In this document: piece by piece, positions 10,965-62,205 of the stretch | Layout of the letters: each line of letters opens with the position of its first letter | How positions within the stretch are numbered: position 1 is the stretch's first letter | From: Quercus robur | Lineage: Eukaryota; Streptophyta; Magnoliopsida; Fagales; Fagaceae | Length of the DNA stretch: 64,000 nucleotides | NCBI RefSeq assembly: GCF_932294415.1 | Contig: NC_065539.1 | Location: 47,344,501 to 47,408,500, forward strand | Direction: 5' to 3' | Program-made: the position numbers and the translations under genes | The notes under the pieces: model-generated | Seen by the model: only the letters and a program-made list of their open reading frames with translations | Told to the model about the DNA's origin: nothing | Database searches by the model: none

Positions 10965-12320
10965 CTACACTCTTTCAACAACGACATTACCTTCACCAAT
11001 CTCATCCACAAAAGCTTTGAGGTTGTTATAGGAAGAACCACCTTCGTTGGCAGCCTCCATCACCAACTCCTTCCATTTCTTGGCATTCCTTCTAATTGCT
11101 TCTCCTCTCTCTCCATCTCCCACAACCAATTCCAAGCATCTCTTAATCTCATCACCTTCAGCAATCCCATCCTTATTCACTATCATCCTCACTCCTGTCT
11201 TCCATACATCTTCAATTAGCTTCGCATTCGTCCCTTGATCAGACCACTGTGGAAATGCTACCATCGGCACCCCTGAAACCAAACTCTCCAAAGTTGAATT
11301 CCACCCACAATGTGTCACAAAGCATCCTAGTGAAGGATGTGACAAGACCTCCACCTGGGAACACCACGGCACTATCATTCCCATTTGTTCCAATTCCTCT
11401 CTGCAACTCAACTTCTCTTCTTCTCCATGTTCCTTAGCTCTTATGACCCACAAGAAGGGCCGCCCACAATTCAACAATCCGCGTGCAATTTCCTCCATTT
11501 GTTGCTTCATTAAGACCGCTAAGCTCCCAAATGAAACATAAATAACCGATGATTCAGGCTTAGAGTTGAGCCATTCGATGTAGTCTTTGGAAACATCTCC
11601 TCCAAATGACTTATCTGATGGAAGTAGAGGTCCAACTGCAACCAAATTAAACTTTTCAATCGCCTTCAAGGCCTCAGGCTCTAGTGCATCAAAGGTATTC
11701 ACTAGAACTCTAGGATTGTTCTCCTTTTCAAGCGCTTCAAAGTGGGCTTGAATCATTGGGAGAGCAAAAGTGTGAGTGTTGGAAGCAAGAAAAAAGGAGG
11801 GTAGGTCACGGCTAGTGAGTAATGGTAGTCCCGGTAACTTTATCGAAGATGAGGGGTAGTCATTGTTGTCGTTTCTGATAACATCGGCAAAACCGTTGAA
11901 GTAGTAGTAATATATGTCCAAAACCATGGCAGGTTGAATCCAAAGAAGCGTGGAAGGAAGGTGAAGTTCACGAGCCACGTCAGCAGCCCAAGGTAGAAGC
12001 AGTGTGTAGACTAAGCAAGTAAAGGGACGACCCTGGTTGGCGCTGGACACAATAAGGTGAGTGAGAGTTTTGGAGCCATTGCCCTTGAGCTGATCGAAGT
12101 GGTTCTGGGCATCATCCAGGGAACATCCGTCGTCGTAGCCATCAGAGAAGGTGACAAACGACAAGCCGTCTGGAGGAGGACTCTTGATCATGCGACGGTG
12201 GGCACTAATGGTGATGGCAAAGGTGACCTGTGCTCCCAAGTGAATGAGGCACTTAGCGAATTGGAGGGAAGGGTTGACATGGCCTTGCGCTGGGAATGTA
12301 ACGAGAAGGAAGTGAGCCAT
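10965..12320 (-). CDS. UDP-glucosyltransferase, UGT75-type (UGT-2)
   Basis: A 451-residue intronless family-1 UDP-glucosyltransferase. Catalytic His is H14 (PAQGHVNP). The PSPG box covers about residues 319-362 with HCGWNS and a final DQ. The UGT75-type LLLPWAADVARE, LLWIQPA and IYYYYFNG blocks are present, with Thr in place of the usual catalytic Asp. From VYTLLLPW onward it is nearly the same as UGT-1. The first 110 residues are clearly more different and carry an insertion (NQGRPFTC) absent from UGT-1 and UGT-3. The ATG is the first in frame and aligns with the other copies. A Pack-MULE sits 195 bp upstream of the start and the TATA context of the other copies is not kept, so expression may differ. 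Acceptor unknown; the ORF looks intact. Confidence 0.93.
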   Translation of the reverse strand: MAHFLLVTFPAQGHVNPSLQFAKCLIHLGAQVTFAITISAHRRMIKSPPPDGLSFVTFSDGYDDGCSLDDAQNHFDQLKGNGSKTLTHLIVSSANQGRPFTCLVYTLLLPWAADVARELHLPSTLLWIQPAMVLDIYYYYFNGFADVIRNDNNDYPSSSIKLPGLPLLTSRDLPSFFLASNTHTFALPMIQAHFEALEKENNPRVLVNTFDALEPEALKAIEKFNLVAVGPLLPSDKSFGGDVSKDYIEWLNSKPESSVIYVSFGSLAVLMKQQMEEIARGLLNCGRPFLWVIRAKEHGEEEKLSCREELEQMGMIVPWCSQVEVLSHPSLGCFVTHCGWNSTLESLVSGVPMVAFPQWSDQGTNAKLIEDVWKTGVRMIVNKDGIAEGDEIKRCLELVVGDGERGEAIRRNAKKWKELVMEAANEGGSSYNNLKAFVDEIGEGNVVVERV

Positions 12321-12475
12321 GCTATATATTCTATTGGATTTTGGTCCGAGTGTTGAGGTGTTGTGGGTAGTGACTTGTGAATATAAATAAGCTTAAAAGG
12401 AAATAGTTTTGAGTTCTTGGAAATGGAGATTACACGGGACCTGAGATGAATCATTGAGAGTTGTGCTTTGTAAAT

Positions 12476-14336: not shown

Positions 14337-15114
14337 CTATAAAACGGGTAATTCTAGCGTACCCACCCTTTTTTTTGGGGGGTACGGTACCCACTAGTAG
14401 ACAACCTGCTATATCAAGTTACCAAAACATCACATTTGATGGTACTATTCTCATATTGTGTAGTACTAACATCACATGTAACTATACTTTTGTCACATAC
14501 AGTAGTTCCCTTATTTTTTCTCACATTTAATGGTACCATCTTCACATTGTGCAGTATCAACATCACATATGACAGTACTTTTGTTACATTCGGTGGTTCC
14601 CTTTTTTTTTTTCCTTACATTTGATGGTACCATTCTCACATTGCATAGTACCAACATCACATGTGACTGTACTTTTGTCACATTCGGTAGGTCCTTTATT
14701 TTTTCTCACATTTGATGGTACCATCCTCATATTGTGCAGTACCAACATCACATGCGACTGTATTTTTGTCACATTCGATGATTCCTTTATTTTTTTTTCT
14801 CACATTTGATGGTACTATCCTCAAATTGCGTAGTACCAATATCACATGTGACTGTACTTTTGTCACATTCGATGGTTCCCTTATTTTTTTTCTCACATTT
14901 TATGGTACCATCCTCATATTACACAGTACCAACATCACCTGTGATTGTATTTTTGTCACATTCGGTGGTTCCCTTTTTTTTCTCACATTTTATGGTACCA
15001 GCCTCACATTGCGTAGTACCAATATCACATGTGACTGTACTTTTATTACATTCAATGGTTCCCTTGTGTTTTTTTCCTCATATTTTAAGGTACCAGCCTC
15101 ACATTGCACAATAC

Positions 15115-15998
15115 CACGGGCGGCTCTAGGTACAATTCAGGGGGTTCAAATGAACCCCCTGAGTTGAACTCCCTGAGTTGGGCCAAAAAGAAAATTTATA
15201 TATAATTTTTTAATATTTTTTTTATTTGAGGCTCCTAAAATAAATTTTGAACCCCTTAGACCTTTTTATTTATTTATTTATTTTATTTATTATTTTTTTT
15301 AAAGCCTAGTTGAAACGAACTTGAATATGATCATGTTGACAACATCTTGGTCTTTTTAAACCCAAAAAAAAAAAAAAAAAAAAAAAAACCAATTTGATCT
15401 AAAATAAGAGGGAAAAATAGTAAACCTATTAACAAAAATATAAATTTGTTTATCTTAAATCTTAAAAAAATCATTTAGATCTTAACAAATTTAAAAGAAA
15501 CTAATACATAAAATTTTATTATATTTAGATCTCGCTTAGAGTTCACTTAACAACAATAATTCATATGTTGATTGTATTTACAAACAATAGATGATTTACA
15601 AGATTTAATCTTAACAATAATAATTAATATCTTCACCATATTAATAAGCAATATGCAATGAACTTATAATTTATCTTATATGAGAAACGCTATGTTCATA
15701 ATACGCTCACAACAAAGTTTAAGTGGCTAATTGTTACTAACTGTTATTGATAGGGAAAAAAGTAGTTTCATTAGTAAGTTTAAATTAGAACTAATAAAAA
15801 TGTATAACCTAAAATTTGTTAGAAAAGTGTTGTGAAAATGTTGTAGATGTAACACTTCTCATCTTTTATTCTCTTACTAGTATGTACTGTGAAAAATTTT
15901 GTAATAAAGAAATCACATAGACTGCAAGACTCACTTTTTTTTAACCAAAATGTATCTTTTAATTGACCCCCTAAATATATGTCCTGAAGCCGCCACTG
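15115..15998. mobile_element. Non-autonomous hAT element inside the array
   Basis: 884 bp with short inverted ends: CACGGGCGGCTCTAGG at the left and, reverse-complemented, CAGTGGCGGCTTCAGG at the right. The 8-bp target duplication is cacaatac (15107-15114) against cacagtac (15999-16006), one mismatch. The array repeat itself predicts the empty site (cattgcacagtaccaac), which fits. No transposase domain was found; a MITE copy lies inside at about 15680-15862. Confidence 0.8.
15680..15862. repeat. MITE-like element, copy 2 of 3
   Basis: Ends atgttcataatacgctcacaa and the inverse block ttgtgaaaatgttgtagatg, with the same interior words as the copies at 14004 and 36510. It is nested in the hAT element at 15115-15998. 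Confidence 0.55.
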
Positions 15999-16299
15999 CA
16001 CAGTACCAACATCACATGTGATTGTACTTTTGTCACATTCGATGGTTCTCTTTTTTTTTTTTTTTTTTCTTCACATTTTATGGTACCATCCTCATATTGA
16101 ATAGTACCAACATCAAATGTAACTGTACTTTTGTTACATTCAGTAGTTCCCTTATTTTTTTTTCTCACATTTGATGGTACTATCCTCACATTGTGCAGTA
16201 CCAGCATCATATGTCACTGCACTTTTATCACATTCCCTGATAGTCTTATTTTCTCTCACATTTAATGGTACTATCTTTACATTGAGTAGTACCACCGTG

Positions 16300-16790
16300 C
16301 TGTACTTTCGTATAATAAAAAATTTTCAGTCTCTGCTCTCAGTTTTCGAATCTTTGACTTTCTTCTTCTCTCTCTCGATTTTTCTATAATCTACGCTTCT
16401 CTCCAGTTTCGTCTCTCAAATTCTTCTCATCCAAACCATCCACAAAAACCTATCTAGAGCGACGATTACTAAACAAAACCCTAAGCAAGACCACAAAAGA
16501 AGAAACAGATCCCTAAGCCATGAACGGTTCCTCGCCAGCTCTAGCGAGGGAATTGTTCTCGCCAAAAAAAAGAAATGGATTGTTTATTTTTCCCTCTCTC
16601 TCTCGATCATGCCCTCTTTCCTTTCTCTTCGACTTCGCTCCCTTTTCAGAAAGGACCTCACCATTAATTGACCTCGTCGGTGCAAGGAAAGGGGTTTTAC
16701 ACAGCGACGATCGAAACCCATTTCACGTACTGTAGAGTTGGTTTGAAATTTCCCCAAATTTTTTGGATTTGAAAAAAATGATAACTATAA
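16300..16790 (+). other. Possible captured 5' exon of a host gene
   Basis: Between two blocks of the 92-bp array lies sequence of different, more gene-like composition. It has a pyrimidine-rich leader with ctctctctcgat and aaaaccctaagc, typical of plant 5' UTRs, then an ATG at 16520 and 71 codons beginning MNGSSPALARELFSPKKRNG. I do not recognise the protein. GC content is higher than on either side. Capture of a promoter and first exon by a MULE would explain it; a chance open frame is the alternative. Confidence 0.35.
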
Positions 16791-17584
16791 ATCTTATAGT
16801 ACTTTTGTCACGTTGTGTAGTTCCAACATCACTTTTGATAGTACTTTTGTCACATCTAGTGGTTCCCTTAATTTTTCTCACATTTGACAGTTTCATTCTC
16901 ACATTGTGTAGTTCCAACATCACATGTGATAGTTCTTTTGTCATATTTAGTGGTTCCCATATTTTTTCTCACATTTTACAGTTTCATCATCACATTATGC
17001 AATTTCAACATCACATTTAACAGTACTTTTGTCACATTTGGTGGTTCCTTTAATTTTTCTCACATTTGACGGTTTCATTCTCACATTATGCAGTTCCAAT
17101 ATCACATGTGATAATTATTTTGTCACATTTGGTGGTTCCCATATTTTTTCTCACATTTGACAATTCTATCCTTACATTGTGCAGTTCCAACATTATATTT
17201 AATAGTATTTTTGTCACATTTGGTATTAACTTTATTTTTTCTCACATTTGACGGTTCCATCTTCACATTATCCAGTTCCAACATTACATTTGACAGTATT
17301 TTTTGTCACATTTGGTGGTTCCCTTATTTTTTTTTTCTCACATTTGATGTTTTTTTCTCACATTGTGTAGTAAAAACATCACATGTGACTATACTTTTGT
17401 CACATTTGGTGGTTCCTTTATTTTTTTTTCTTATATTTGATTATTCTATTCTCACATTGTGTAGTTTCAACATCACATGTGACTGTTCTTTTGTCACATT
17501 TGGTGATTCCCTTTTTTTTTTTTTTTTTCCTCACATTTGATGGTTCCATTGTCATATTCGGTACTACCAACATATCATTTACCA

Positions 17585-17985
17585 AAAAGTGACTATAATG
17601 CTCTTAGAACCTAAAAAACGACCTTAATGCACCTTAAATCTAAAAAATGACTGAAATACCTAGAGTCCCAAAAAATGACCGAAATGACACTGAAACCTTA
17701 AAAAATTTCAAAATACCCTTGAAACCTATAAAATGACCAAAATATCTCATAAAACTTAAAAATAACAAAATACCCACGAAACCCTCAACAATTACTGGAA
17801 TAACCTTAGTACTTTTAAAAAAAATGACCGAATGATCCTAAAACCTAAAAAATGACAGAAATTACCTTAAAATATAAGAAATGATCGAAAATAACCAAGA
17901 AATCTAAAAAATGACCAAAATACTCTTAGTACCTAAAAAATGACTAAAATGACCTTGAAAACCTTAGAAAGGACTGAAATATCAT
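17585..17985. repeat. Minisatellite of about 34-bp units
   Basis: About eleven degenerate units of the type cctaaaaaatgaccgaaata followed by ccttgaaa. The array sits between the third and fourth blocks of the 92-bp array and is unrelated to it. Confidence 0.75.
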
Positions 17986-18340
17986 GTTGAACCATACTTT
18001 TGTCACATTCAGTGAGACCATTATTTTGTTTTTCACATTTGACAATTTCATCGTCACATTATGTAGTACCAACATCACATGTGACCGTACTTTGTCACAT
18101 TCAAAGGTTTTCTTATTTTTTCTCACATTTAATGGTTCCATTTTCACATCAAGTAGTACCAACATCACATCTAACAGTACTTTTATTATATTTGGTGGTA
18201 CCTTTATTTTTTACCCACATTTGACAGTTTCATATTAATATCATGCAGTACCAACATCATATCTGACTGTATTGTTATTACATTCGATGATAACCTTATT
18301 TTTTTACTCACATTTAAAGGTTCAATCGTCACATTACGTA

Positions 18341-19480
18341 CTATCAACTAGGGACGGAGAGAGACTTGGATGTTCAGGGGCAATGCCCCCCCCCCCACCC
18401 AATTATTTTTAAAAAAATATTATTATATACATAGGTACTAATTTTAGCAACTTTGTTCCATAAGATTACACTTAGAATAGTGATGCCTCTAACAACAGTG
18501 ATGCCTAGATCTTCAAACCAAGCTGAAACAATAAATTTTTAAGAGTGTGGGCTTCTAAGTTAGGTGCAATGCTGAGATAATCACAAATTTAAGACTAATA
18601 GAACCTAAGTAACAAATAGGAATGAATAGACCAACCATTAAGTGTAAACTCTTCCTTGGGCAGGTCCAAGGATAGATCTTATATTGATAAGTAAGGTTGA
18701 TATTACTTTACAGGGTAATTCTCTGTTCTCACACTTGTTTTCTTTTTTCATGGAAAACGTTTATTTCCTTCTTGTTGGGGGGTTCCTTTCCTTATATAGC
18801 CTATTTCCTTGTATCTCAGCCTTCCATCTATACATTTTAGGGGAACTCTTTGGATGCTTGTCCCATTAGGATCCTTTTGAAGCTGGTAGAAAGAGCTGTG
18901 AGCTATGAAATCACTGTTCAAGGGTTATTTCCTCATTAATGCAATTGGTTAGGTTGGTGCAAAGAATTGAATGCGAAGGTGGGAGGTGTCTTCTTCAGGA
19001 AACTTCCTTCCTTGCATGTCTTGTACCATTCCTTTGCCATTCAATCCCCTATCCTTGGGTTTTTTGGGTGTGCCAATTGTCCTTTAGCTCTTTAATTCTC
19101 TTTGGGTGGGCATAGTCCTTGGAGTTTGCCTGCTTTTCTTTATTTGAATTTTCTCACTGTCAAGCTTCTCTCTCTCTCTCTCTTTGAGTGTTGGTATGTC
19201 TCTCAACTTCTTTGCATTTAAGATATTTTAAAATATTTTGAAAATTTAAATTTCATATTTTTACAAAAAAAAAAAAAAAAAAAGAATTGTATAGAGTCCT
19301 GGTATATGTATCACTCTCTCTATCTCTCCAAGTAACTCTCTGGAATGAGCGGCTCAAATTGTCGTTGTTTATTAATTTTAATAAAATTCATGATAGTGAT
19401 TTTGTGTAAGTTTCAAAATATCATCATTATCATCTCAGAGTTTGAGAAATTCTTAAGATTATTTATTTTTCTATAAAGAA
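18341..19480. other. Unassigned DNA with a hAT-type end
   Basis: At about 18351 ctagggacggagagag, followed by a C-rich run, resembles the left end of the hAT element at 37524; no matching right end was found. The rest (18600-19480) is unrecognised, with a TATA-like ccttatatagcc near 18795 and a short (TC)n tract near 19170. No gene seen. Confidence 0.4.
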
Positions 19481-19615
19481 ATTAAATGGTAAATGGGTCA
19501 TAATAAGTTTTAAACTTAGAGTTTCGAGTCTTTTGGGTTAATATTGCAAAATTTAAAGTTGATTTGCGTTATAGGAACTGTTGGAAGTTAATTGGGAAAT
19601 TGAGGAGAGAGACTG

Positions 19616-21110
19616 AATTTCGGCAATGGGATTGCCGAAATTCGGCCAAAAAGCAGGAGAGAGAATAAGGAAAGGAGGAGAGAGAAAATGTTGAATTTCG
19701 TCAATCCCATTGCCGAAATTCCATTGCCCAGTTTTTCTGCCCGAATGCTGTGTGTCCGAGTGTGCCCGAGTGTGGAGTACTCTTAAAATAAAAAAAGGCA
19801 ATCGCGGCAATGTCATTACCGAAATAGGGGAATACATTTTTTTTTTTTTTTAGCAATTGTGATAATGGCATTGCCGAAAATGGAAAAAAAAAAAAAAAAA
19901 GTGGTTTCGAAATCTCTAGAAGAGTAAAAAACAGGTTTCATGGCCACAATATTTTCACAATAAATCACATATAATTAGTCCACAATATTTTCACAATAAA
20001 TCACATATAATTAGTTATTATTAGTTAAAAAAATTTGTGACAACTAATTGTGGCAATGGCATTGCCGAAATAGGAAAAAAAAATTTGTGGCAATACCATT
20101 GCCGAAATAGGGAGAAAAATAAAAGTGACAAACTACTTGAGGCAATTGCATTGCCGAAATAGGGAGAAAAAAAAATTGGAAATACCATTGCCGAAATAGG
20201 GGAATAAATTTTTTTTTAGCAATTGTGACAATGGGATTGCCGAAAATGTGAGAAAAAAAAGAGAGAGAAGGATTATGGCAATGGGATTTCCGAAATAGGA
20301 AAAAAAATTTCGGCCATTCCATTGACGAAAATGTGGAAAAAAAAAAAAAAAGAAGAAAGATTTGTGAATCAAAATTTTTCCCCTATTTCGGCAATAGCAT
20401 TGCCGAAAATGTGAAAAAAAAAATGGGAGAAAAGGATTACGGCAACGGGATTGCCGAAATAGGGGGGAAACAAATTTCCCCCTATTTCGGCAATACCATT
20501 GCCGTAAATGTTAAAAAAAAGAAAAAAAAAGAGGATTACGGCAACGGGATTGCTGAAATAGGGGGGAAACAAATTTCCCCCTATTTCAGCAATACCATTG
20601 CCGTAAATGTTAAAAAAAAATAAAAAATAAAAAAAAGAAGAGGAGAAAAGGATTACGGCAACGGGATTGCCGAAATAGGGGGGAAACAAATTTCCCCCTA
20701 TTTCGGCAATACCATTGCCGTAAATTAAAAATAAAAAAATAAAAAAAAAATAAAAAGAAAGGAGAAAAGGATTATGGCAATAGCGTTGCCGTAAATGTGA
20801 AAAAAAAAAAAAAAAAGAGAGAGAAAAGTACAGAAGGATTAAAAAAAAAAAAAAGGAGAGAAAACGGCAATGGGATTGTCGAAAATGTGGGAAAAATTTT
20901 TTTTTTCCCCTATTTCGGCAATGCCATTGCTGAAATTGTGGGGAAAAAAAAAATTTTGAGGTAATGGTATTACCGAAATAGGGGGGAAAAAATTTGTGAC
21001 AAATTAATTGTGGCAATGGTATTGTCGAAATAGGGAAAAAAAATTTTGTGACAATCTAATTGCCGAAAATGTGAGAAAAAAAAGAATTGTGGCAATGGTA
21101 TTGCCAAAAT
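19616..21110. repeat. Left palindrome array of the inner MULE
   Basis: About 25 copies of a near-perfect palindrome CGGCAAT-NNN-ATTGCCG, usually extended to TTTCGG and CCGAAA, separated by A- or T-rich spacers of 20-70 bp. Many copies have CGTAAA instead of CGAAA on one side. CG pairs are placed symmetrically in otherwise AT-rich DNA. The repeating open frames over it (reading YGNGIAEIGG) are by-products. Confidence 0.9.
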
Positions 21111-21234
21111 AGAGGAGAGAGATATAAAAAAAGTACGCATATTATTCTTTCAATATATTTTTGACTGAACCAGTTTGGTTTGTCACGTTCTTTTAGAAAT
21201 AGATAAGGATAGATTCAAGTACACTGGTACATTG

Positions 21235-21430
21235 AATCTTTTTCTAAAGTGCATGCTGTAAACAAAAACAAAAAAAAAGTACATAGATTCTTATAGAACG
21301 AAAAAATGATTGATGTGCACGCTGTAAACAAAAAAAACAAAGAAAGTATACAGATTCTTACCATAGAAAAGAAAAAATGATTGATGTGCACACTATAATG
21401 CGTGTATGATTATTGATGTGCACACTATAA
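21235..21430. repeat. Inner part of left inverted end
   Basis: Several units with agattcttatag, aatgattgatgtgcac and gctgtaaacaaa; the inverse of the units at 29690-30035 and 25480-25960. They form the inward limit of the left inverted repeat. 21431-21693 holds only AT-rich DNA before the transposase stop codon. Confidence 0.75.
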
Positions 21431-21693
21431 GGTGTTATTGAAACCCTAAACTATAATACACAATATATATATAGACACACACAGACACAAAATAAATAAA
21501 CGTACACCCCAATCTAACTTGCAGTGCTAGAAAACATCATAGCATATGGAATTAGTACCATGTTCTTTCAAATAATACAAACTAACAATATGGTCCAACT
21601 CCTAAAAACATAATTAAAAAAAAAAAAAAAAAAAAAACAACAGTCCAACCAATCCACTGAAGTAGATTGAATACTTATGTTGGGTCATTCAGT

Positions 21694-24428
21694 TTAGCCA
21701 CTAGTGGAGCCAGCCACAGTTCGAGTGGGGCATGTTCTTCTATTATGGCCTTCTTGCCTACAGAGACTGCACAATGTCCTTGGTTGAAGCTCTGCCCCTT
21801 CGTCCATTTCATTTCGAAGCCGAGTTGTTCTTGGTCGACCTTTTTCACGACGCAGCTTGACATTAGGATACAAGACCGGGAAATTAGGCTCATTCCAATG
21901 TACACTGTTTGGAACTGTGCGAAATCTAGGTGCATAACAAGCAACTTGTTCTTCCAAATGGTAGCAACGGTCGATATATCGCATTGTAGAGATGCCTTGA
22001 TATTTACACACAGCAATGACATGTGAGCACGGAATCTTATAAACCTGCCGTTTTTGACAACTACAAGTGTTCTGCCTCAAATTTACCTCATGACGATGAT
22101 TACCCCTATATGCAGAGTTAGGGTTTATTGGTGTTCTGACTTCAAACAGACCATCTTCATGACTGAACACGGTAACTGAATGCTTTGGTGCCTTTTTTCC
22201 CATTTATTGAATTTATTCTTTGCATAGGCCGTAATGCGTTCACCGGCAGTAACCTCTGCACATGCCTTAGTATACCGATCGGCAAAGTAGGCGACACAAC
22301 GATAGTATGTAAGTTCAACTAATGCAGTTATGGGCAAATTTCTAGCACTCTTTAGAATTCCATTGAAGTTTTCAGACAAGTTTGTGGTCATTGCCTCATA
22401 ACGATGTCCACCATCGTATGCTAACGTCCACTTTTCCACCGACATTTCCCTTAAATACTTCTCACCATCTGCACTTAACTGAGTAATTCTATCCCTGGTG
22501 ATTTGATACTTTCGTAACTGATTCTCCATGCCTGCCCACATTACCATGGCCTTCAAGTTTTTATTCTCAATTTGTTGATTGAAATTGCTAGCCACATGGC
22601 GAAGGCAAAAACGATGATACCAACGTGTCGATTGACATATAGTCCGTATCGCTGCCATTATACCAGGATGATGATCAGATATGACACATAACCCTTCTCG
22701 ATTAGTGACATTAATCTGAATACAACGCAAAAACCAATACCAGCTATCATCAGTTTCCTTCTCCACAATGGCAAAGGCAAGTGGAAAAAGTCTGTTGTCA
22801 CCATCCCAAGTTGATGCAATCAGTAACGTACCTTTATACTTACCATATAGGAAAGTTCCATCTATACTAATCACTGACCTACAATGTTGAAAACCTTCAA
22901 TTGATGGACCAAAAGCCCAGAACACTCTCTCGAATATCGCACAGCCTGGCATAGTAGCAGGTATTGTTCTCCAAATAACCCTGCTGTCCGGGTTTGAATC
23001 AGTCAAAGCTTTCAACCATTTTGGCAATAATTGATAAGATTTGTCCCAATCACCAAACGCTCTACCAATTGCTTTCTCTTTTGCCTCCCACACCTTGAAA
23101 TAAAAAGGCCTGTATTGGTACTTATTATAAAGAGTCTGTTGAAGTGAAGCAATCTTTATGGTTGGATCATTTTTGACAACATCCCTCAACTCTTTCTCAA
23201 TAACATGGGTGTCTAATTGCTCATGATCTTGTGTGAGCGTAGACTCTGTACATGTGTGTGGACCATTGTACTTCCTAACCTCAAACAACCCATATGTAGC
23301 CCGGAAGCATGCTCGAAGACGCCAAGAACAATTTTTGCACCTTACAGACCAACATTCTGGATCTAACTCTCTTACACAAAATGTTTGGTTCCTCTTGATG
23401 TGATAGCGTTTAACAGCAGCTTGTAGTTCATCCTTATCGACAAAAAGCAAGCCCACATAAAACTCTTGGGTAGGGTCCCAAATACTTTGAGTGGGCTTTT
23501 CAAATGGTGGGGTTGGATCAATTATATTATCCCACGTGTTCTGTGAAAAGCTTAGTGATGAAGGTTGATGGACTCCCATAGTTGGACTGCTTTCATGATT
23601 ACCTTCATTTGGAGGCTCCTGTTCATCTCCAATATCATCAAGGACCTCATCGTCATCAAGTTGGTCATCACTATCCATAGTCCACATCCTTTCTGATAAT
23701 GTATGGACCGCATTTTCAGTAGTAGCAGCTATACGATGTGTATCATTAGGATCATTAGCAGCTCTCTGAGAGGCGGTTTGGTCATACTGAGCTTCAAACT
23801 CAAAACAAGTAGTCTCTTGTGTGACATGCTCAGTTGGATTATCATAGTCAGCATCACTGTTGTTCATTAGCCGAGAAGGAACATGTTGGTCCTCAGTTGC
23901 AACATGAGTATATGGAGAATGATAGTCAGCACCGCCAATGTTGATTGGAGAATGAGCCGCATCTTGAGAATAATGACCAATATGAGTGGCATATGGATCA
24001 TGGAAGTGCCCGCCATGTGAATAACTAAACGATGCACTCGGTCCTTTGTTGGCATATCGAATGGGGAAAACATCTCGGTGGCTTCTTATAGGCTCTACAC
24101 CCACGTATAACTCTGCACCTACAAATCCATATTGGCGGTCTAACATATCGAATATTGCATTGACACCATTATCATCTGCTACCAAAACTTGCTGGTAAGT
24201 CACAGGATGTGGATGACATTGAAATGGAAATCTATACCAAATAGTCAATTTTGAATCTTCTCTGTTTATATGAAGTGTGGATGCTACTCTATCACATAGA
24301 TCTTCAAATGTAACACCCCGGCTTAATGGAAGCATAGAAGGAGGTGGCCCTTCGTAATAAACCCCATTTTCTCCATGTTTAATTATTCTACCGGAATGGA
24401 TGAGAAAAATGAACAACTTTTCTACCAT
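21694..24428 (-). CDS. MuDR/MULE transposase with one frameshift
   Basis: The first frame (22125-24428, 767 codons) has a PB1-like N-terminus (about 1-110) and an acidic linker. A MuDR zinc DNA-binding domain has C364, C367, H391 and C393. The MULE catalytic domain has D523 (SIDGTF), D585 (ISDHHPGI), the C608-H611 signature and a probable E685 (NLSENFN). The SWIM zinc finger (CSC, then PCSHVIA) and a CCHC knuckle (CSLCRQEGHNRRTC) lie in the next frame, 21694-22203. The frames overlap, and a -1 step in the run gggaaaaaagg near 22195 is enough to switch. Either this copy is broken once or the run slips. The ATG follows a good 3' splice site (ctttactgtag), so a 5' intron is likely. It would cut and join the element ends in the nucleus. 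Confidence 0.85.
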
Positions 24429-24429
24429 C

Positions 24430-25080
24430 TACAGTAAAGCATAATAATAGTATTAATAAATTAACACAACACAACCATTACAATGCAATACAAGAAGGTA
24501 ATCCATTAAAAATATTCATTGATAATAATAGTATTAAACATACGTGTATATTATAGGCTAACAAACTAAGTATTTCTTTAAGGAAATATACGTCAATTTT
24601 GAAATTTAGGCAAGAATTCATGGATAAATAATTTAAAACATATCATACAAATCAATTCATATTGCAAAACACATAATACAGAAACAAGATTTGCATGAAC
24701 AAATAATTTAACAAAAAAAAGATTTTCATACTTAGCTATGCCCCTAAAACATATCAACATGAATATTATAAAAAGAAAAGTAATTACTTAAGAAATATAA
24801 CTCACCTTCTAAGAGATAACGAACGGATAGATATTTGCAAGTGTTGTTACTTATAGTTGTTTGTAGAATATATGGCACGCATGATTTGAAAATGGTTGGT
24901 AAAATTATGAGGGGAACAAGAGTGGAGAAGAAGGTTGATGGAATTTATAGGGGAAAAAGAGTAGAAAATAAGAACGGTGGAAATTTCAGTGACATTAGTA
25001 CTGTTTAAATAGGATGCAAGTTTCATATCAGTTAAATTCAGTGACATTATAGGGTACTTTTACCATAAAAGAACATGACA
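24430..25080. other. Spacer upstream of the transposase
   Basis: About 650 bp of AT-rich DNA that must hold the transposase promoter and any 5' exon. No clear TATA box could be chosen among the many AT stretches. Confidence 0.4.
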
Positions 25081-25990
25081 AACAAAACTCCTTTGGTCAA
25101 AAAAATACTTAAAGAATCTCTGCAATGTCACAAATACTGAAAGAATCTCTACAATGCCACTGCAATGCCATTGTACTTGAATCTATCCTTATAGGGTACT
25201 TTTTTTTATATGTGTACTTTTTTTTTTTATCTCTCTCCTCTATTTCGGCAACAAAAAAATACTGAAAGAATCTCTGCAATGCCACAAATACTGAAAAGAA
25301 TCTTTGCAATGTCATTGTACTTGAATCTATCCTTATAGGGTACTTTTTTTCATATGAGTACTTTTTTTTTATATCTCTCTCCTCTATTTCGGCAATGCCA
25401 TTGCCACAAACCAGATGAGATAAGGAGTTGAAGTGATTGGTTGATTGACTCTTTGTTTTATTTTTTTTACTTTCTTTGCTTTTTTTGTTCACAGCGTGCA
25501 CGTAAGAATCTATGTACTTTCTTTACTTTTTTTTTTTTTTTTTTTTGTTTACAGCGTGCACATCAATCAATTTTTTTCTTCTATATTGTAAAAATCTATG
25601 TACTTTCTTTGCTTTTTTGGGTTTACAGTGTACACATCAATCATTTTTTTTTTCGGTATTGTAAGAATCTATATACTTTATTGTTGTTTACAGTATGCAC
25701 ATCAATCATTTTTTTATTCTATATTGTAAGAATCTATATACTTTCTTTGCTTTTTTTTTTTTGGTTTATAGTGTGCATATCAATCATTTTTTCTTTTCTA
25801 TTGTAAGAATCTGTATACTTTCTTTGTTTTTTTTTTTTTTTTTTTTGTTTACAACGTGCACATCAGTCAATTTTTTTCTTCTATAAGAATCTATGTACTT
25901 TTTTTTGTTTTTGTTTATAGCGTGCACTTTAGAATAAGAATCAATGTACGAGAGGCTATGGAGAATAAGAATCTATGTACTTTTTTTTGT
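25080..25990. repeat. Third, rearranged copy of the MULE end
   Basis: A partial copy of the inner MULE end lies between the transposase and the PMD gene. It has two runs of tatctctctcctctatttcg with tactgaaagaatctc blocks, one CGGCAAT palindrome, and then the cagatgagataaggagttg and TGCACATCAATCA array found at 29640-30035. Its order is the same as in the right end, but the long palindrome array is missing. Confidence 0.75.
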
Positions 25991-26247
25991 CTTTGACACT
26001 TTTACGAGGGTTTGGAAGAGAAGCTGTGGAGAATGAAAATAAAAATGTACACCACAATAGCCATCATGCAAAGGAAAAAAGATTTACCAAAGGAAAAATG
26101 TACACATTTCTTGTTTTCACAAAGGTCTTACGGTTAGTAGTATAATGTGCTATGTATACTATCTAGGCATAATATTTTTTGCTACAATGATGCATAAATA
26201 ATGATAATACTTTAATATATTTTTAATAAACAGTCATTTTACATTGA

Positions 26248-28870
26248 TTAGTGATTGCGACGATGAGGTACATTCAATTTTTGTTGTGTTCCACAACATG
26301 GAGGATGCCTATTTTCTCGTTGTGGGTACCTTTGTGCTTGCACAGGACTTCTCCCCATGCGCCTCGACTGTGTTCTAATATCAACCTCTGTTTGATAATT
26401 ACCATAGTCGTCATCTTCATTATCTGAAGACACCTCCATATCTTGGGTATCTTCTGCATCTTCCCCACTATCCTCATTTGAGGCATCTTCCTCAGAGTCT
26501 GTTACAGAGGCCTCTTCTTCAGAGTTTGGAGCACATACCCATGTATTTTGTGGTGTGCAAAAATCACCAACATGAGGGGGTGGTTGGGAAGGTTGTGGTG
26601 TACAGAAATCATAGTTGTACTGGCTATCTTGGCCATAATTGTATTGCCCAGCATAAGATGGAGGTGGCGATGGGTGATAGGAGGGAGGTGTTGAATTAGG
26701 TTGGGGATAATGGTCATAGATAAACAAACCCTCAAATCCTTGTCCTATGGAAGTGGATGACCCAATTTGTTGATATAAATTCATGCAATACTCATTGACA
26801 TTAATTGGATTATACTCACTGAAGGTGGTTGGCTCATTACTAGCAAATGTTGATGGCCCAACTTGGGTAGAGCTGTACATATTGTGTTGTGCGGAGGTGG
26901 ATGGTCCGACATCATCATTTCGGCATTGTCCACGTTGTGCAGAGGTAGATGAGTGGGTTTCAATATAGGTTTGCGACTGTCTTCCTTGGCGCCTTTGTCG
27001 TCGCCCGAAGTTTGTCACCCTTTCAGTAGGGATAGAGGAAATATTTGCTTCCATTGATAACTTCAGTCGGGTAAGGCCCTCTACTATTGGTGGAAGGACT
27101 TGTTGTGCTGTGAGATCATTTCTCTGTTGATTTGCAACAGCTAAATTTAACATATTATTGACCTCAGTTTGCTGTCGCAGAAAAAGGAAAATAACATTTA
27201 TTAGTGCAGTAATATTGAAAAAGTGAAAATAATAATTTGTTATCAATATTAGTGCAGTATTCGGATGTGTAAATAACTTGTTATCAATATTAGTGCAGTA
27301 TTATCAAAAAAGCTGAAATAATAACCTGGTATATATGGGCAGCCGCCTCTGGTGTTGTGAATAGGTGACCATTTTGCTGGTACCATGTTGCATAGTCCAC
27401 ACTTGAATCAAAAGGTCATCTCCAACTAGAAGTTCAGCTTGCATGTTCCAACGCTGGTAGTATTGGTCATGCTGCCTTCTCCAATTGACAGTGGACTTTC
27501 CTGTCAACTTTATACAATGCACAGATTTATCCAAATTGTCTGTAGGCCACCTTGGACATCTTTGCAACAACCCAAACTGTTGCATGACTCTTTCTGGGTA
27601 GTAATACTTTACAATTTGGAAGCCCAACAATGGCGCTGTTGTAGTTCATATATTTCTTTCTGCAAGACACCATGGATGCATATAGTTATCGTATGGTGTC
27701 CAAACAACCTGCAATTCCAATTACAATAACTATGTTATAATCAATCAAGACAATAATATAACTAGTAAATTAACCATTGATGCATTGTGATATATTACAT
27801 GTTTATTATTATGTGTATCATGATTAGAACGGTATGAACGCAAAACATGCGTTGGTGTATGAGTAAATGTTCTTTTGGTATTCCACCTATACACAATTAA
27901 TGATTGTCATACAATATTTAGGGTTTGGAAGTATCAAGGATTACAAAATTGTATAGAAATAAAAAGTAAATATTATACCTGCAACCGTATGGGTCGTCGC
28001 CATTTAAATTTGTTGGATTTATTGGAATTGGGGTCAGATATGGAAGATGCTCCCACGCCCATAATTGTAATATGAAAACAGGACCTGCAATCTCCGTGCT
28101 TTTTTTAATAGCAGTAGTACACAGCTCTTTATAAAGGTAAGCAAGTGTAGCACTACCCCAGCTATATTCCCCAGCTACACCAAAGTCGTCTAACAGCTTG
28201 AGAAAGCAGCAATGCAATCTACTTTGGCTCTTATTTCCAAATAGTAAAGCCAAAACCTGAAACATGTATGCCCTAGCATGCTGTTGGGTTGTTATAGCAT
28301 TGGCACCCTCTGGTAGGTTTGAGAATGTATCCCTTACCCATGTTATTTTAAGGCCACCAAATTTCAATGCTGTTTCAGGTGGTGTCACCCCAAGTAAATT
28401 ACGACATTCTGTACTCCAAATCAAATTTATTGGCCCGCACACTGCATTGCCATCAATAGGCAATCTTGTAAGGATTGCTATATCCTGTAGAGTTATAGTC
28501 ATTTCACAATTAGGTAGGTGAAATGTATGGGTACTACATTGCCATCGCTCCACCAAAGAAGTGATAAGACTCCAATCAATATCTATATGTGGTAGGCGGG
28601 TAACACGGTATAATCTACATTGATGCAAATATGGGGCGATACGCTCGCCTAACTATGGGAGGGGTGCAAACGATTGAGGTCGCACTCGTAAGGTGGAAAC
28701 TTGAATTTTTTTTTTAAAAAAAATATACAATGTTATATTGCTAATGTTTAAATTATTTTCATGTAAATTGAATAATTGTATATATTATTAGGACATTAAT
28801 AAATTTGGATCTTGCAACGTACATTGCCTTCCATTGCATCATTAGAGATGTGGTATTGTTGTTGCTCCAT
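26248..28870 (-). pseudogene. Plant mobile domain (PMD, MAIN-like) gene in MULE
   Basis: Exons read by eye on the minus strand: a short first exon (MEQQQYHISNDAMEGN, from 28870); the PMD core (28.68-27.98 kb) with WSLITSLVERWQ, THTFHLPNCEMTITLQDIAI and GDDPYGCR at a GT donor; about 27.89-27.78 kb (RWNTKRTFTHTPTHVLRSYR); about 27.71-27.33 kb (PERVMQQFGL to EAAAHIYQ); and a last exon (26248-27180). The last exon encodes a disordered Ser/Pro-rich tail with an acidic stretch and an Arg-rich end. The PMD occurs in transposons and in MAIN/MAIL1, host proteins needed for transposon silencing in Arabidopsis. This copy has two in-frame stops and one frameshift in the core exons, so it is probably not translated whole. 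It lies between two copies of the MULE end. Confidence 0.75.
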
Positions 28871-29640
28871 TTCAAATATATCTACAACAAAATTGAAAGA
28901 AACTCAAATAAAGGATTTATGAAGCAAAATTTTTAATAATAATAATAATAATAGTTTTTGCAAAAATAATCATACACACAATAATTAGTATTAACTATAA
29001 TTGAGATGCTTACCACAATTGTGATGCCAACTAAAAGAGTGAGAATTATAGAGTGATACTTGCAAAAAAAAAAAAAAAAAAAAAAAACACAATCAGATAA
29101 CCATAAAAAATAATTCATTAATCTAAAATTTGAATAACAAGACCAACAACAACAACAATTATCATAATCATAGGCATACAAATAATATTAATTACAATTA
29201 CAACAATACATAATATTTTACAATGTATTAGCTTCTAATATTTACAAAGCACATGTTTATACAATAATAATAAGTTTGTTAATTTCTAGAGCTATAAGTT
29301 AATAAGCAAAGCAAAAAAAATTACATTAACAAAAAACTTACAATCCTTAGTTGTGGCACACTGAAACAAAGTAAAAGAATAACTTTGCAACCTGAGGAAT
29401 TGTGATGAGATGCAATTCTAATTCGCACTTCCCTTCTCTTTTATTACCAATTGAACAATAAAAAGACAAAAAAGAAAGATTTAGGCGTGGCAAAATTTAT
29501 TTTCTGCAGAGAATATAAGTCAGATGAGATGAGGAGCAGACAAAAAAGAATCATGTTGGAGATGAGGTGAGGAGTAGACAAAAAAGAATCACGTTGAAGA
29601 TTTAGGTGTGGCAAAATATATTTTCTGTAGAGAATAAAAA
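28871..29640. other. Spacer upstream of the PMD gene
   Basis: AT-rich with ATT microsatellite-like runs. A two-copy repeat of about 125 bp (gatttaggcgtggcaaaat, then cagatgagatgaggag) lies at about 29480-29660. It presumably holds the PMD promoter; none could be singled out. Confidence 0.5.
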
Positions 29641-29689
29641 TCAGATGAGATGAGGAGTTGAGGTGATTGGTTGATTGAATCTTTGTCTT

Positions 29690-30035
29690 TTTTGGTTTAC
29701 TTTCTTTACTTTTTTTTTTGTTTACAACGTACATGTACATGTAAGAATCTATGTACTTTCTTTGTTTTTTTTTTTGTTTAAAGCGTGCACATCAATCATT
29801 TTTTTCTTCCGTAGTGTAAGAATATATGTACTTTCTTTGCTTTTTTGGTTTACTGTGTACACATCAATAATTTTTCTTCTTCTATATTGTAAGAATCTAT
29901 GTACTTTCTTTACTTTTTTTGGTTTATAGTGTGCACATCAATCATTTTTTCTTTTCTATTGTAAGAATCTGTATACTTTCTTTGTTTTTTTTTTGTTTAC
30001 AGCATGCACATCAGTCATTTTTTTCTTCAATAACA
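29690..30035. repeat. Inner part of right inverted end
   Basis: About five units of tttgtttacagcgtgcacat, caatcattttttcttc and gtaagaatctatgtacttt, the reverse complement of the units at 21235-21430. Confidence 0.8.
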
Positions 30036-30099
30036 TAACAAACCAAACTGGTTCAGTCAAAAAAATATTGAAAGAATAATATGCGTACTTTTTTTATAT

Positions 30100-30565
30100 C
30101 TCTCTCCTCTATTTCGGCAATACCATTGCCACAATTCTTTTTTTTCTCACATTTTTGGCAACGACATTGTCGAAATGGGGAAAAATTTTCCCATTTCGGC
30201 AATCTCATTGCCACAATTGCTAAAAAATTTTTTATTCCCTATTTCGGCAGTGGCATTGCCACAATTAGATTGTCACAAAATTTTTTTCCCTATTTCGGCA
30301 ATACCATTGCCACAATTAGTTTGTCACAAATTTTTTTTTCCTCCCTACTTCGGCAATACCATTACCACAATTTTTTTTTTCTCACAATTTCGGCAATGAC
30401 ACTGCCGAAATAGGGGAAAATTTTTTTTCCCCTATTTCGGCAGTCGCATTGCCACAATTAGATTGTCACAAATTTTTTTTTTCCTATTTCGGCAATACCA
30501 TTGCCAGGCAATGGCACTGCTGAAATAGGGGAAAATTCCCCACATTTTCGGCAATCCCATTGCCG

Positions 30566-30604
<39 letters not shown>

Positions 30605-30829
30605 CACATTTACGGCAACGCTATTGCCGTAATCCTTTTCTCCTCATTTTTTTTTTCACATTTACGACAATGGTATTGCCGAAATAGGTTTCCCCCCTAT
30701 TTCGGCAATCCCGTTGCCGTAATCCTTTTTTTTTTTTTTTTTTTAACATTTACGGCAATGGTATTGCCGAAATAGGGGGAAATTTGTTTCCCCCCTATTT
30801 CGGCAATCCCGTTGCCGTAATCCTTTTCT

Positions 30830-30862
<33 letters not shown>

Positions 30863-31625
30863 CACATTTTAGCATTGCCGAAATAGGGGAAAATTTTTGA
30901 TTCCCACAAATCTTTTTTTTTTCCACATTTACGTCAATGGAATTGCCGAAATTTGTTTTCCTATTTCGGAAATCCGATTGCCATAATCCTTCTCTCTCTA
31001 TTTTTCTCACATTTTCAGCAATCCCATTGTCACAATTGCTAAAAAAAATTTTATTCCCCTATTTCGGCAATGGTATTTCCAATTTTTTTTCTCCCTATTT
31101 TGGCAATGCAATTGCCTCAAGTAGTTTGTCACTTTTATTTTTCTCCCTATTTCGGCAATGGTATTGCCACAAATTTTTTTTTCCTATTTCGGCAATGCCA
31201 TTGCCACAATTAGTTGTCACAAATTTTTTTAACTAATAATAGCTAATTATATGTGATTTATTGTGAAAATATTGTGGACTAATTATATGTGATTTATTGT
31301 GAAAATATTGTGGACATGAAACCTGTTTTTTACTCTTCTAGAGATTTTGAAACCACTTTTTTTTCCATTTTCGACAATGCCATTATCACAATTGCTAAAA
31401 AAAAAAATTTTATTCCCCTATTTCGGCAATGACATTGCCGCGATTGCCTCTTTTTTTTATTTTAAGAGCACTCCACACTCAAACACACAGCATTCGGGCA
31501 GGAAAACTGGGCAGTGGAATTTCGGCAATGGGATTGACGAAATTCAACACTTTCTCTCTCCTCCTTTCCTTATTCTCTCTCCTGCTTTTTGGCTGAATTT
31601 TGGCAATCCCATTGCCGAAATTCAG
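30100..31625. repeat. Right palindrome array of the inner MULE
   Basis: About 25 copies of the CGGCAAT-NNN-ATTGCCG palindrome, in inverted order relative to 19616-21110, with the same variant types (CGTAA ends, cggcaacgggattgcc). Poly-T spacers reach over 40 bp near 30570, so the true length may be uncertain in the assembly. Confidence 0.9.
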
Positions 31626-33109
31626 TCTCTCTCCTCAATTTCCCAATTAACTTCCAACAATTCCTAAAACGCAAATTAACTTTAAATTTTGCAATATTAA
31701 CCCAAAAGACTCTAGAGTTTCACTATTTACTCATTAAATTTACCACTTAATTCCTCTAGACTAAACTCTTTTGCACTTTTATATCAACTCTAAAGAGTCT
31801 TTTTTATAAAAGGATTACTAGATTAGTCTTAATGAAGTCATTTCTGTCCTGCACATGGCCTTCTTGACAATTACCATAGCATCTAAGAGGGAAAATTTTG
31901 ATTCAACAGTTGTACAGAGAATCTAAAATGACTTAAAAGTTAGAGAAAAGCAACAAGAATAAATCGCAAATACTTTTCTCTATTGAGTAATGAATACATC
32001 CACAATGGAGGATATGGAAAACTATATTAGCCCAAAGAAGGATATGAAGTTTATGAACAACTCAACTTTATAAGCTATTTGAAAATTCCAGCCAAATACA
32101 GGGAAAAAGTAGAAAGGAATGTCTGAAGAAGAAAAAAAATTTACAGCCAAAATACTTCAGCTACCATCTTTCACATGTGTTGGTTTCTTCTGCAAGCGTC
32201 TCCCAAACGTTTGCCATCTTCTCTGCATATCATGCCTATACATAGGCATGTATCATTATCAGAGAAAAAAATTGCTCTTATTAAGTGTATAATGTAGCAT
32301 TATTATTATTCGGGGCCACATATTGCCAACGTCAAAAAAAGGAACCTAATTTGCAACAAATCCTCTCAACATAACAATAAATTTGGAGCCAATCTACCAG
32401 AAGCAACTTAGAATTTTAAATCCTACATCACAATTTATGTTGCCACATGTTTAACAATCAAGTAATAATAAGCTCTCATTATATGTACTTAATACATAAA
32501 CAGAAGAGGCATTAGGCCTCCTAGTGATGATTTTCCAACAACAATACAACTCTTAGTTTTTACCTAGCAAACCCAAAAGGAGGCCACATTGCATTTGACT
32601 AGAAAAATACCACATCTTCAAACATCTTCAATACCAAGAAGTAATCAAAATAAAAAATATTATAGGTAGAAGGTGATCAGAATTATAAGCTAGCCAATAC
32701 ATTTGCATACCTGTCAGTCTACCCTACTTGTATCCAAATTAAATAACAGCATTGAAGCTTGTAGCTTACAATAAAAAGGGAACCACATAAAATCAACAAA
32801 TATTTGTAGAAGGCATCAAGTAATAACTTGTCAACTATAAACAAAGAATATTTACTTTGCCAATAGGGGTCGTGAACATTTTACATTTAGTGGACAAAAA
32901 TCATAACTCCAAAAGGAACTTAAGAAACCAGTGAGGAACAAAATCAACACAAAACACACAAATGAAGTGAAAGTTACGTTCTTTATTAAATCAAACTTTC
33001 AAGTCCTAAGCACAAAACCGAGGGAAACAAGCGAGCCAAATAATTTCACAACAATAATTAAAATGAAAGACAATTTCAGATTACCTTTACTCTAAGTGCT
33101 TACTCATTT

Positions 33110-55439: not shown

Positions 55440-55930
55440 GAAAGTCAAACTAACGTAACAAGAGTCCGCCTTGACGGATGCAAGTTATCGACGATAACGC
55501 CAACGAGTACGAGATAAACTAAAGTAACAAGATTCCGCCTTGACGGATATAAATTACTGGCGACCCTCATAATGGGTACAAAATAAAAATGACTAAGTGA
55601 TAAGATTCCGCCGAGACGGATCTAAATCACTGACGAAGCCCTAAGTGACGAGATTCCTCAATTGGATGTAAGTCACCAAAATAAAAATAGCTAAGTGATA
55701 AGATTCCGCCGAGACGGATGTAAATCATTGACGAAGCCCTAAGTGACAAGATTCCTCAATCGGATGTAAGTCACCAAAATAAAAGTAGCTAAGTGATAAG
55801 ATTCCGCTGAGATGGATGTAAATCACTGACGAAGCCCTAAGTGACGAGATTCCTCAGTCGGATATAAGTCACCAGAATGAAAATGGCCAAGTGATAAGAT
55901 TCCGCCAAGACGGATGTAAATCACTGACGG
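55440..55930 (+). repeat. Tandem repeats between pol and antisense ORFs
   Basis: Units of about 120 bp built from two half-repeats: aagtgataagattccgccga, then gacggatgtaaatcactgac, and aagtgacgagattcctcaat, then cggatgtaagtcacc. About four full units. Such variable tandem repeats 3' of pol are usual in Tat elements. Confidence 0.8.
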
Positions 55931-56389
55931 AGGCACACAAACGTGCTGGAAATGTAGACGTAATCCTAAAGTCTACGCGAATGGCGGGGTCCCACTTAAC
56001 GAACTAAGGATACTGACGAACCCGCAAGGAAAAGAGCAAGGAGAAAAAGAAGAAGGATAAAGAATGACGAGCAAGTTACAGGTAGAAAAATTTGCTCTAA
56101 TTACCAGCTAAGTACAAGGTACGCTAAGAAGTTTGTGCTAAATCACGAATATGTGCATAGTCATAGACAGTAGCATAACCACAAAAGCAAGTAAGCATTA
56201 AATCATAAAAAAAAAGGCCTAAAAACATAGGGCAATTATCCTTGTTCTTCCTACAGACCCATAAAACGAAGGGCCAAAAGATATTGTTCTGAAAATAGAA
56301 ATAAAAACAAAAAGAAAAAAAAAATGTACATCTCCAAAAAAGGGCCCAAAACACAACGGGAAGATATAAATGATAAAATCTCCTAAGTA

Positions 56390-57409: not shown

Positions 57410-57453
<44 letters not shown>

Positions 57454-58622: not shown

Positions 58623-59171
58623 GAAAAGGGATACCCAATCCTAAATGCCCAACATACCAAACACGAAAATAAAAGAAAAAAGGAGAAAAAATCAGAGATT
58701 TATAAAGAGACCTTGAAGAAAAAAATCTGAGAAATCGAAGAAGTAGCGTACCTTGGAGAACGGAACAGTCGAGGCCGAAGAAATTCGTCGCCGGAGTAAG
58801 GTCAGAGTCGTTGGAGTAAGGTCAGAGTCGCCGGAGCAGAATTGGGATGGTGGCAGAAACAAGCAAAGAAAAAAGAAAAAAGGACAAACACTCGGAGCAG
58901 AAAAAGAAAGAAAAACCAGAGTGAAGAAAAATGAAAGGTCTTTAAAACCAAAAACCCAAGGAAACTGAAAAGTAGCGGGAAACCCAATGGGTCATGCCAT
59001 CAATACTCTCAATCAACCTATGCCACGTGGCCACGTTCCATACTGCGCCACCATCACACATTAAATTCGGAACGAAACCCCAAGCGTCACAAACAATTCA
59101 GGAAAAGAAACTTTTCACCTTCTATGGCCTTCATGACACGTCACTGACGACCACAGAACCTGGGGGGCAAC

Positions 59172-62121: not shown

Positions 62122-62205
62122 GGTTATTTGATATTTGATATGGGTTGTGAATAGTCTAAACAAAAACAGAATATATAGTTGTTTTGTACTTTAGATATGT
62201 GAGAC

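Follow-up and report, generated by a model that had tools for sequence, protein, structure and literature searches.

The window analysed here, a 64,000-nucleotide stretch of the Quercus robur genome (NCBI RefSeq assembly GCF_932294415.1, contig NC_065539.1, positions 47,344,501 to 47,408,500 of the forward strand), contains a Mutator-like element (MULE) that carries a MURA transposase and a separate PMD gene, and whose long inverted ends consist mainly of tandem dyad units set beside TATA-like boxes. The features of the element, including its terminal inverted repeats (TIRs) and the flanking target site duplication (TSD), are as follows in window coordinates.

19517..19525, no strand: left copy of the TSD TAGAGTTTC, a 9-bp duplication
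19526..31712, minus strand (both genes on the minus strand): whole element of 12,187 bp, a foldback-type MULE with PMD, recognised by ends, TSD, domains and relatives
19526..19617, plus strand: left TIR, terminal 92 bp (GAGTCTTTTGGGTTAAT...), conserved in 63 arms
19618..21109, plus strand: left array of 25 dyad units (unit scan)
21123..21131, plus strand: TATA-like box 13 bp inside the last left-arm unit (sequence pattern)
21249..21398, plus strand: inner repeat block of the TGATTGATGTGCAC type within the left arm (self-comparison)
21694..22203, minus strand: C-terminal end of MURA, read in a different frame, with SWIM PF04434 (Pfam)
22125..24428, minus strand: MURA-like transposase, 767-aa frame with DBD_Tnp_Mut PF03108 and MULE PF10551 (Pfam)
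25365..25373, minus strand: TATA-like box facing MURA, separated from the internal unit by 13 bp (sequence pattern)
25387..25409, minus strand: lone unit in the interior, upstream of MURA and present at the homologous position in 4/4 full copies (unit scan)
25408..25927, minus strand: inner repeat block between PMD and MURA (self-comparison)
26248..27300, minus strand: 350-aa frame following PMD, matching no Pfam family (open reading frame, dN/dS)
27304..27645, minus strand: further frame of the PMD gene, end part of PF10536 at 31.6 bits, just below the cut-off of 34.9 (Pfam)
27918..28652, minus strand: main frame of the PMD gene, PF10536 with an E-value of 1.8e-47 (Pfam)
29740..30032, minus strand: inner repeat block between the right-arm TATA-like box and PMD (self-comparison)
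30090..30098, minus strand: TATA-like box 13 bp inside the last right-arm unit, facing the PMD gene (sequence pattern)
30112..31620, minus strand: right array of 25-26 dyad units (unit scan)
31621..31712, minus strand: right TIR, terminal 92 bp, conserved in 63 arms
31713..31721, no strand: right copy of the TSD TAGAGTTTC, a 9-bp duplication

Among left ends at 19461-19560 and right ends at 31691-31790, tested for a TIR match of at least 10/12 and a TSD of 8-11 bp with at most one mismatch, 19526-31712 was the sole fitting pair, with TAGAGTTTC matching at 9/9 positions around it. The first-pass annotation had already recognised a MULE here, as the transposase domains, TIR, 9-bp TSD and relatives all confirm, but had placed its ends at 19481 and 31755, a pair that was rejected for want of a matching TSD. 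The two inverted ends (19526-21393 against 31712-29855) are 79.8% identical over 1962 columns, which are mainly dyad units as had been proposed, and their termini are identical across 35 bp. By its transposase domains, TIR and a TSD within 8-11 bp the element is a MULE; its arms of ~1.6-2.2 kb, long inverted ends of tandem sub-repeats in variable number, are of the foldback type, and the PF10536 gene linked to the transposase is the mark of PMD-bearing MULEs. In the 63 arms, non-CpG columns of the terminal 92 bp vary less than those of units or spacer (pi 0.09-0.10), and this segment is likely the main transposase site.

MURA is supported by Pfam E-values of 6.5e-17 for PF10551, 5.4e-08 for PF03108 and 3.8e-08 for SWIM, and its C-terminal frame also matches a zinc knuckle (PF13696) at 21.7 bits, under the curated cut-off of 27. 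Because several sister copies keep one open 911-aa MURA frame, the gene of the window copy appears to be broken at the frame overlap, or else an A run has been miscalled. The PMD gene seems to be split over exons, and the 350-aa frame, which is acidic by eye, is probably its tail. Against three sisters, the ratio of nonsynonymous to synonymous substitution (dN/dS) was 0.35-0.61 for MURA, 0.22-0.36 for the 350-aa frame and 0.35-0.86 for the PMD frame, the last on 2-4 synonymous changes only. A sequence search of solved structures returned none for MURA and three chance-level matches for PMD (E 0.23-0.48), and neither protein had relatives in the viral contigs searched.

The arrangement of the two genes was followed through the host assembly (785.7 Mb), the one genome that the family survey covers, with 38/66 MURA rows and 39/150 PMD rows entered and distances taken between matched parts. 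Where MURA identity was at least 89%, 23/27 copies had PMD on the strand of MURA, 3.2-5.5 kb upstream of it; among older copies (MURA identity 74-88%), 7/11 had a PMD match on the opposite strand, on the 3' side of MURA and 2-13 kb away. PMD orientation therefore differs with age, older copies being convergent and younger copies same-strand. More than 100 of the 150 PMD matches showed only 35-44% identity, many of them equal-scoring and without stops, so the host may contain further families with PMD that have spread recently.

The dyad unit of the arms is AATTKYGGCAAT-NNN-ATTGCCGAAAT. Each arm holds 25 units with at most four mismatches (of 20) from TTTCGGCAAT-NNN-ATTGCCGAAA, and 25-26 (51 in total) at up to five, in agreement with an earlier estimate of about 25 per end; first-order Markov versions of the same arms (n=50) gave a mean of 0.0 at the four-mismatch limit. 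One further unit lies within the element, at 25387, and the rest of the 64 kb, outside the element, contributes three weak matches (5-6 mismatches). The description of the ends as arrays of CG palindromes holds only in part: dyad units do dominate both ends, but 20/51 have CG in both halves, 21/51 having TG outside and CG inside, and the exact string CGGCAAT-NNN-ATTGCCG occurs at 7 places in the window. CG in both halves was likewise found in 229/543 units across 24 elements of the family. The ratio of observed to expected CpG is 1.08 and 0.98 in the two arrays, 0.50 in the element interior and 0.53 outside the element. Among 298 half-anchored units from the arms of the 24 elements, the other half was kept at 79-99% per base at GGCAAT and the AATT flank at 78-86%; since conservation drops at the unit borders, the unit is taken to be ~33 bp long, AATTKYGGCAAT-NNN-ATTGCCGAAATWG. 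The two arms are collinear and differ by gain or loss of whole units. The inner repeat TGCACATCAATCA/TGATTGATGTGCA occurs at 6 exact places in the window and forms tandem units of ~73 bp at 29740-30032. This second repeat type, previously placed inward of the arrays, is real but not confined there, as it also stands between the two genes (25408-25927).

In the host genome, CGGCAAT-NNN-ATTGCCG was found 287 times exactly (reversed control 1) and TTGTGGCAAT-NNN-ATTGCCGAAA, the TTGTGG form with more fixed bases, 976 times (490 + 486; control 0), so the asymmetric TTGTGG form is commoner than CG/CG. In bacterial and viral collections the exact dyad appeared in 4 genome stretches and 1 viral stretch, which we take as chance. 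A search with the first 195 bp of the element found 485 candidates, of which 40 were scored, giving 77 match rows. From 11 CG/CG places (13 stretches), the terminal-195-bp loci and one MURA copy, 24 relatives were assembled with a TSD of at most two mismatches as the entry condition; choosing loci by dyad, end or MURA favours array-bearing copies. The assembly entered 38 stretches, with 5/30 end loci omitted as other ends of listed elements; 13/38 yielded no new TSD-flanked element (repeat ends, or a partner beyond the stretch), and two L043 rows with an empty TSD slice were dropped, leaving the 24. Four are full elements (12.2-13.9 kb, 49-58 units) and 20 are short (0.64-2.2 kb, 5-25 units), so that all carry 5-58 units, and their TSDs are 9-10 bp long, 19 perfect and 5 with one mismatch. 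A single terminal inverted match covers at least 80% of the length in 16/20 short elements, ~70% in 2/20 and under half in 2/20.

The proposed association of the array with MULE ends held in the copies and sites sampled. No array-less member was found among the 24 TSD-flanked elements, a sample that favours array-bearing copies, and 46 of the 50 listed CG/CG sites (287 in total) lie inside TSD-flanked elements rather than in satellite DNA away from ends, the places sampled having been drawn from this very list; by hand count, the remaining listed sites comprise 1 in an array without TSD and 3 outside the sampled stretches. Some listed TTGTGG sites (976 in all), which unlike the CG/CG sites were not assigned to elements, stand alone. 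Nine copies chosen by MURA had their 3' side sampled: five showed arrays (21-30 units), one was masked and three were uninformative. L058 has 0 units, but 2627 of its 3601 bases are N; L059-L061 (0 units) say nothing about the ends because the sampled MURA side is often the PMD side in older copies. L064 also has 0 units, its stretch probably stopping before the array. A good MURA copy at C2:34404181 without a CG/CG string nearby was considered as an array-less member and rejected, a variant array being present. A MURA copy at C2:19687174 has PMD 15.7 kb away and looks like an array-ended copy with extra internal DNA, because inward-facing TTGTGG units stand at 19668417-19669045 and 19689939-19690761.

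Synchronous array turnover between copies was seen in one clear case, L057, whose array has been swept to TTGTGGCAATGGGATTGCCGAAA: 21/27 units are TG/CG, and GGCAAT-NNN-ATTGCC is kept. Three further loci were noted in the survey. At C2:14869993-14871017, 13 exact TTGTGG units are closely packed, ten of them in one orientation and three reversed, which resembles a swept short element. C38:51199076-51205473 (L024, L027) is a member of 6.4 kb without a PMD match, and its right array continues directly into the start of MURA. L017 4180-8749 contains nested family members, one inner element having a perfect TSD, GACCAAACG, the sole pairing there with one.

The arrays are joined to TATA-like boxes in a regular manner. 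In the window copy and the full copies E1, E2 and E3, the unit end and the TATA-like box are 13 bp apart at 12/12 sites, three per copy, namely both arm inner edges and the lone unit upstream of MURA. This link at both arms and MURA is new. A stricter initial pattern gave 1 place, and the counts come from its replacement; with it the same spacing was found in 4/6 further arms, and the 20 short elements gave 8 loose TATA-edge matches. When the arm edges are compared with the site upstream of MURA (consensus of 4 copies each), ~56 bp (unit, GAGAGAGA and TATA) match apart from one substitution and an A run differing by 2 bp; the sequence immediately on either side does not align. In the older relative L063 an array of 10 units, every one with the TTGTG outer type, is followed by a TATA-like box, then by inner repeats and the MURA leader. 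Since pieces downstream of the MURA site also resemble the L063 leader by eye, the site may be what is left of an old arm and not a cassette moved there from elsewhere.

On balance, and with limited confidence, we consider it probable that the arrays are promoter-linked, multi-copy binding arrays for an element-encoded protein, similar in logic to those of VANDAL elements and VANC. A dimeric protein would bind the many ~33-bp dyad units, whose arrays lie immediately upstream of the TATA-like boxes of the element genes; binding of the protein to the units would activate or de-silence the element, and the terminal ~92 bp would serve as the transposition end proper. The binding protein would most likely be encoded by the element itself, as MURA alone or with the PMD protein: MURA has a MuDR-type DNA-binding domain, and the PMD protein would be its natural partner. 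That the arrays are binding sites of the VANC kind is plausible, and array turnover together with the fixed unit-TATA spacing strengthens it.

Several observations weigh against this reading. The TATA-like boxes are recognised by sequence only, and their role as promoters of the element genes is presumed from it. In L057 the TATA is kept and the next full unit is 38 bp away, and in L024 the array is fused to MURA without a unit-TATA edge. The border drop in the half-anchored units comes partly from A/T-run indels. Constraint on the units is weak and mixed. Between the two arms of the window copy, non-CpG core and spacer sites diverge alike (8/218 and 30/851), and in the first two units of the 63 arms core pi was 0.190 against 0.167 for spacer (permutation p 0.69). 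In the other direction, among eight full arms, non-CpG core divergence was 136/4947 (2.75%) against 490/12386 (3.96%) for spacer, with the core less divergent in 22/26 pairs having enough sites (28 pairs, which are non-independent).

Because the cores were no more conserved in two of these tests, the arrays may be upheld by repeat turnover alone. Under such an explanation they would be a by-product, in which slippage and unequal recombination expand the arms and inter-arm conversion keeps functionless units. The absence of extra core constraint in two of three tests agrees with this, as do the range of 5 to 58 units per element, the whole-unit differences between arms and the varying repeat number known from the foldback ends of Muta1 (PMC5225508) and Tm1 (PMC3169594). 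We nevertheless regard the by-product explanation as somewhat unlikely. Against it stand the unit-TATA distance, which is constant at three non-allelic sites in each of four copies, the retention of the lone MURA unit in 4/4 full copies, the lower core divergence in 22/26 arm pairs and the dyad retained by the swept variant of L057.

The units could also be docking sites for the transposase, whose number sets transposition efficiency without any role in expression. Short elements of 0.64-2.2 kb retain 5-25 units, and maize MURA binds a TIR motif (PMC3310237), but it is the terminal 92 bp and not the units that is most conserved, and a unit is retained far from the ends, at the promoter-like site of MURA. 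Docking alone is doubtful.

A source of hairpin or double-stranded RNA, which would either silence the family in the manner of maize Mu killer (PMC3440606) or help it to resist silencing, is suggested by the 16/20 short elements in which a single terminal inverted match takes up 80% or more of the length. Such a role would account for the inverted arms and not for the dyads, and 2/20 short elements have under half of their length in the match. At the level of the unit, for which hairpin RNA had been suggested, 222 distinct units contained 31 compensatory changes against 34.9 expected, and only the dyad pair 10-14 exceeded its shuffle (8 vs 2.5). A unit hairpin is not supported by these counts, and we consider the RNA explanation improbable.

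Methylation sensing, another role put forward by the first-pass annotation, would make the symmetric CG placement itself the signal. CpG sites do diverge fast, in 10/64 against 8/218 non-CpG sites in cores of the window copy and in 153/1447 against 136/4947 in the eight arms, counts in which a site is CpG if either arm has CG, which raises apparent CpG divergence; as methylated sites do, they may bear the footprint of methylated cytosine. The proposal is weakened because the outer CG is dispensable, and it is very unlikely: although observed/expected CpG is ~1 in the arrays against 0.5 elsewhere and arm CpG sites diverge ~4 to 10 times faster than others, the high CpG follows from the motif itself, the outer CG is TG in 21/51 units here, in 21/27 in L057 and in the older L063, across the genome exact matches to the TG form outnumber those to CG/CG (976 vs 287), and in the 63 arms the CpG columns of the first two units are about as variable as the remaining core columns (0.199 vs 0.190).

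The first-pass annotation knew of no described family built in this way, and what our search added is that foldback MULEs with tandem-repeat ends and PMD-bearing MULEs are described separately, not together. In the literature searched, with Repbase outside the search, there was no such family of MULE ends with palindromes or of PMD with anti-silencing, and neither the dyad nor the TIR strings were found. VANC has a domain of the DUF1985 type, which gave no Pfam match in the five frames scanned, shorter frames and sisters lying outside the scan. The second gene of maize MuDR is mudrB and not PMD, and the TIRs of MuDR are short and without dyad arrays. MuDR nevertheless resembles the present element in its two genes and in TIRs that contain both MURA sites and promoters (PMC3310237), and MURA is reported to induce TIR hypomethylation (PMC10398659).

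In logic the arrangement resembles VANDAL21 and VANDAL6 with VANC, in which a short motif occurs many times in noncoding DNA, motif variants turn over synchronously and the transposase is accompanied by an extra gene (PMC5735166, PMC10398659). The motifs bound by VANC21 form arrays in noncoding regions, and the repeats also occur upstream of VANA21 (PMC5735166). The VANC21 motif is a 9-mer in one orientation rather than a dyad (PMC5735166, PMC10398659), and VANDAL TIRs are described as degenerated (PMC10398659) or 46-174 bp long (PMC6446971), in contrast to the arms of ~1.6-2.2 kb here; the trait of degenerate or short TIRs is absent from our element, with its long arms and termini identical over 35 bp. 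For the VANDAL group, a table in PMC6446971 lists SWIM and CCHC domains, with 'PMD and/or DUF in half the members'. If the transposase belongs to the VANDAL group, the likeness to VANC arrays could be one of kinship rather than analogy.

Muta1 of Aedes and Tm1 of Meloidogyne share with our element a MULE transposase, 8-9 bp TSDs, tandem-repeat TIRs and short nonautonomous copies (PMC5225508, PMC3169594), and FARE of Arabidopsis is alike as a foldback-type MULE, as cited in PMC3169594. Muta1 differs in having 12-bp repeats, 9 copies of them in a 145-bp TIR (PMC5225508). The present family is set apart from foldback-type MULEs by its ~33-bp dyads, ~25 per arm, the adjoining TATA-like boxes and the PMD gene. 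The MUDR, MDR and MUDRAVI2 groups also combine a MURA with SWIM, PMD in most members, often antisense, and 9-10 bp TSDs (PMC6446971). Their TIRs are 30-373 bp long, and dyad arrays go unmentioned in the portion of that source drawn on here (PMC6446971). In the present family the young copies have PMD and MURA on one strand, and the older copies have them on opposite strands. PMD is described as a domain of unknown function (PMC7156037), and an anti-silencing role for the PMD captured by MULEs is a speculation in PMC5418596.

The remainder of the window contains other repeats and genes. A ~92-bp tandem family rich in TCACAT/ACATGTGA lies at 14430-18348, about 1 kb to the left of the element, with all its blocks in the same orientation. 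Remains of long terminal repeat retrotransposons at 41091-45706 and 50162-58640 include gag, reverse transcriptase, integrase and gypsy-type domains (five frames scanned). The tandem blocks and three related frames are as follows.

14430-15116, 16001-16294, 16808-17573 and 17991-18348, one orientation: ~92-bp tandem blocks (self-comparison)
1000-2403, 10965-12392 and 60748-62190 (minus strand): three related glycosyltransferase-like frames with 81-91% DNA identity

The frame at 1000-2403, the only one of the three scanned, matches Pfam UDPGT.

As a more specific form of the binding-array reading, a MULE-borne PMD protein, with or without MURA, might recognise the dyad arrays and relieve its own promoters of silencing, while array and protein co-evolve. 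We put this forward tentatively and think it unlikely as it stands. If true, plant transposons would possess a second anti-silencing system of the sequence-specific kind, one whose DNA target is defined, and it would realise the anti-silencing by captured PMD that was mere speculation in Ikeda et al. 2017. The family is a concrete target for such work: each full element repeats the dyad ~50x and has a promoter-like module of a single unit at MURA, several sisters retain an open MURA frame, and 20 short derivatives are available. Arrays of the TG/CG and CG/CG types would form a natural series for motif-protein co-evolution outside the VANDALs of Arabidopsis.

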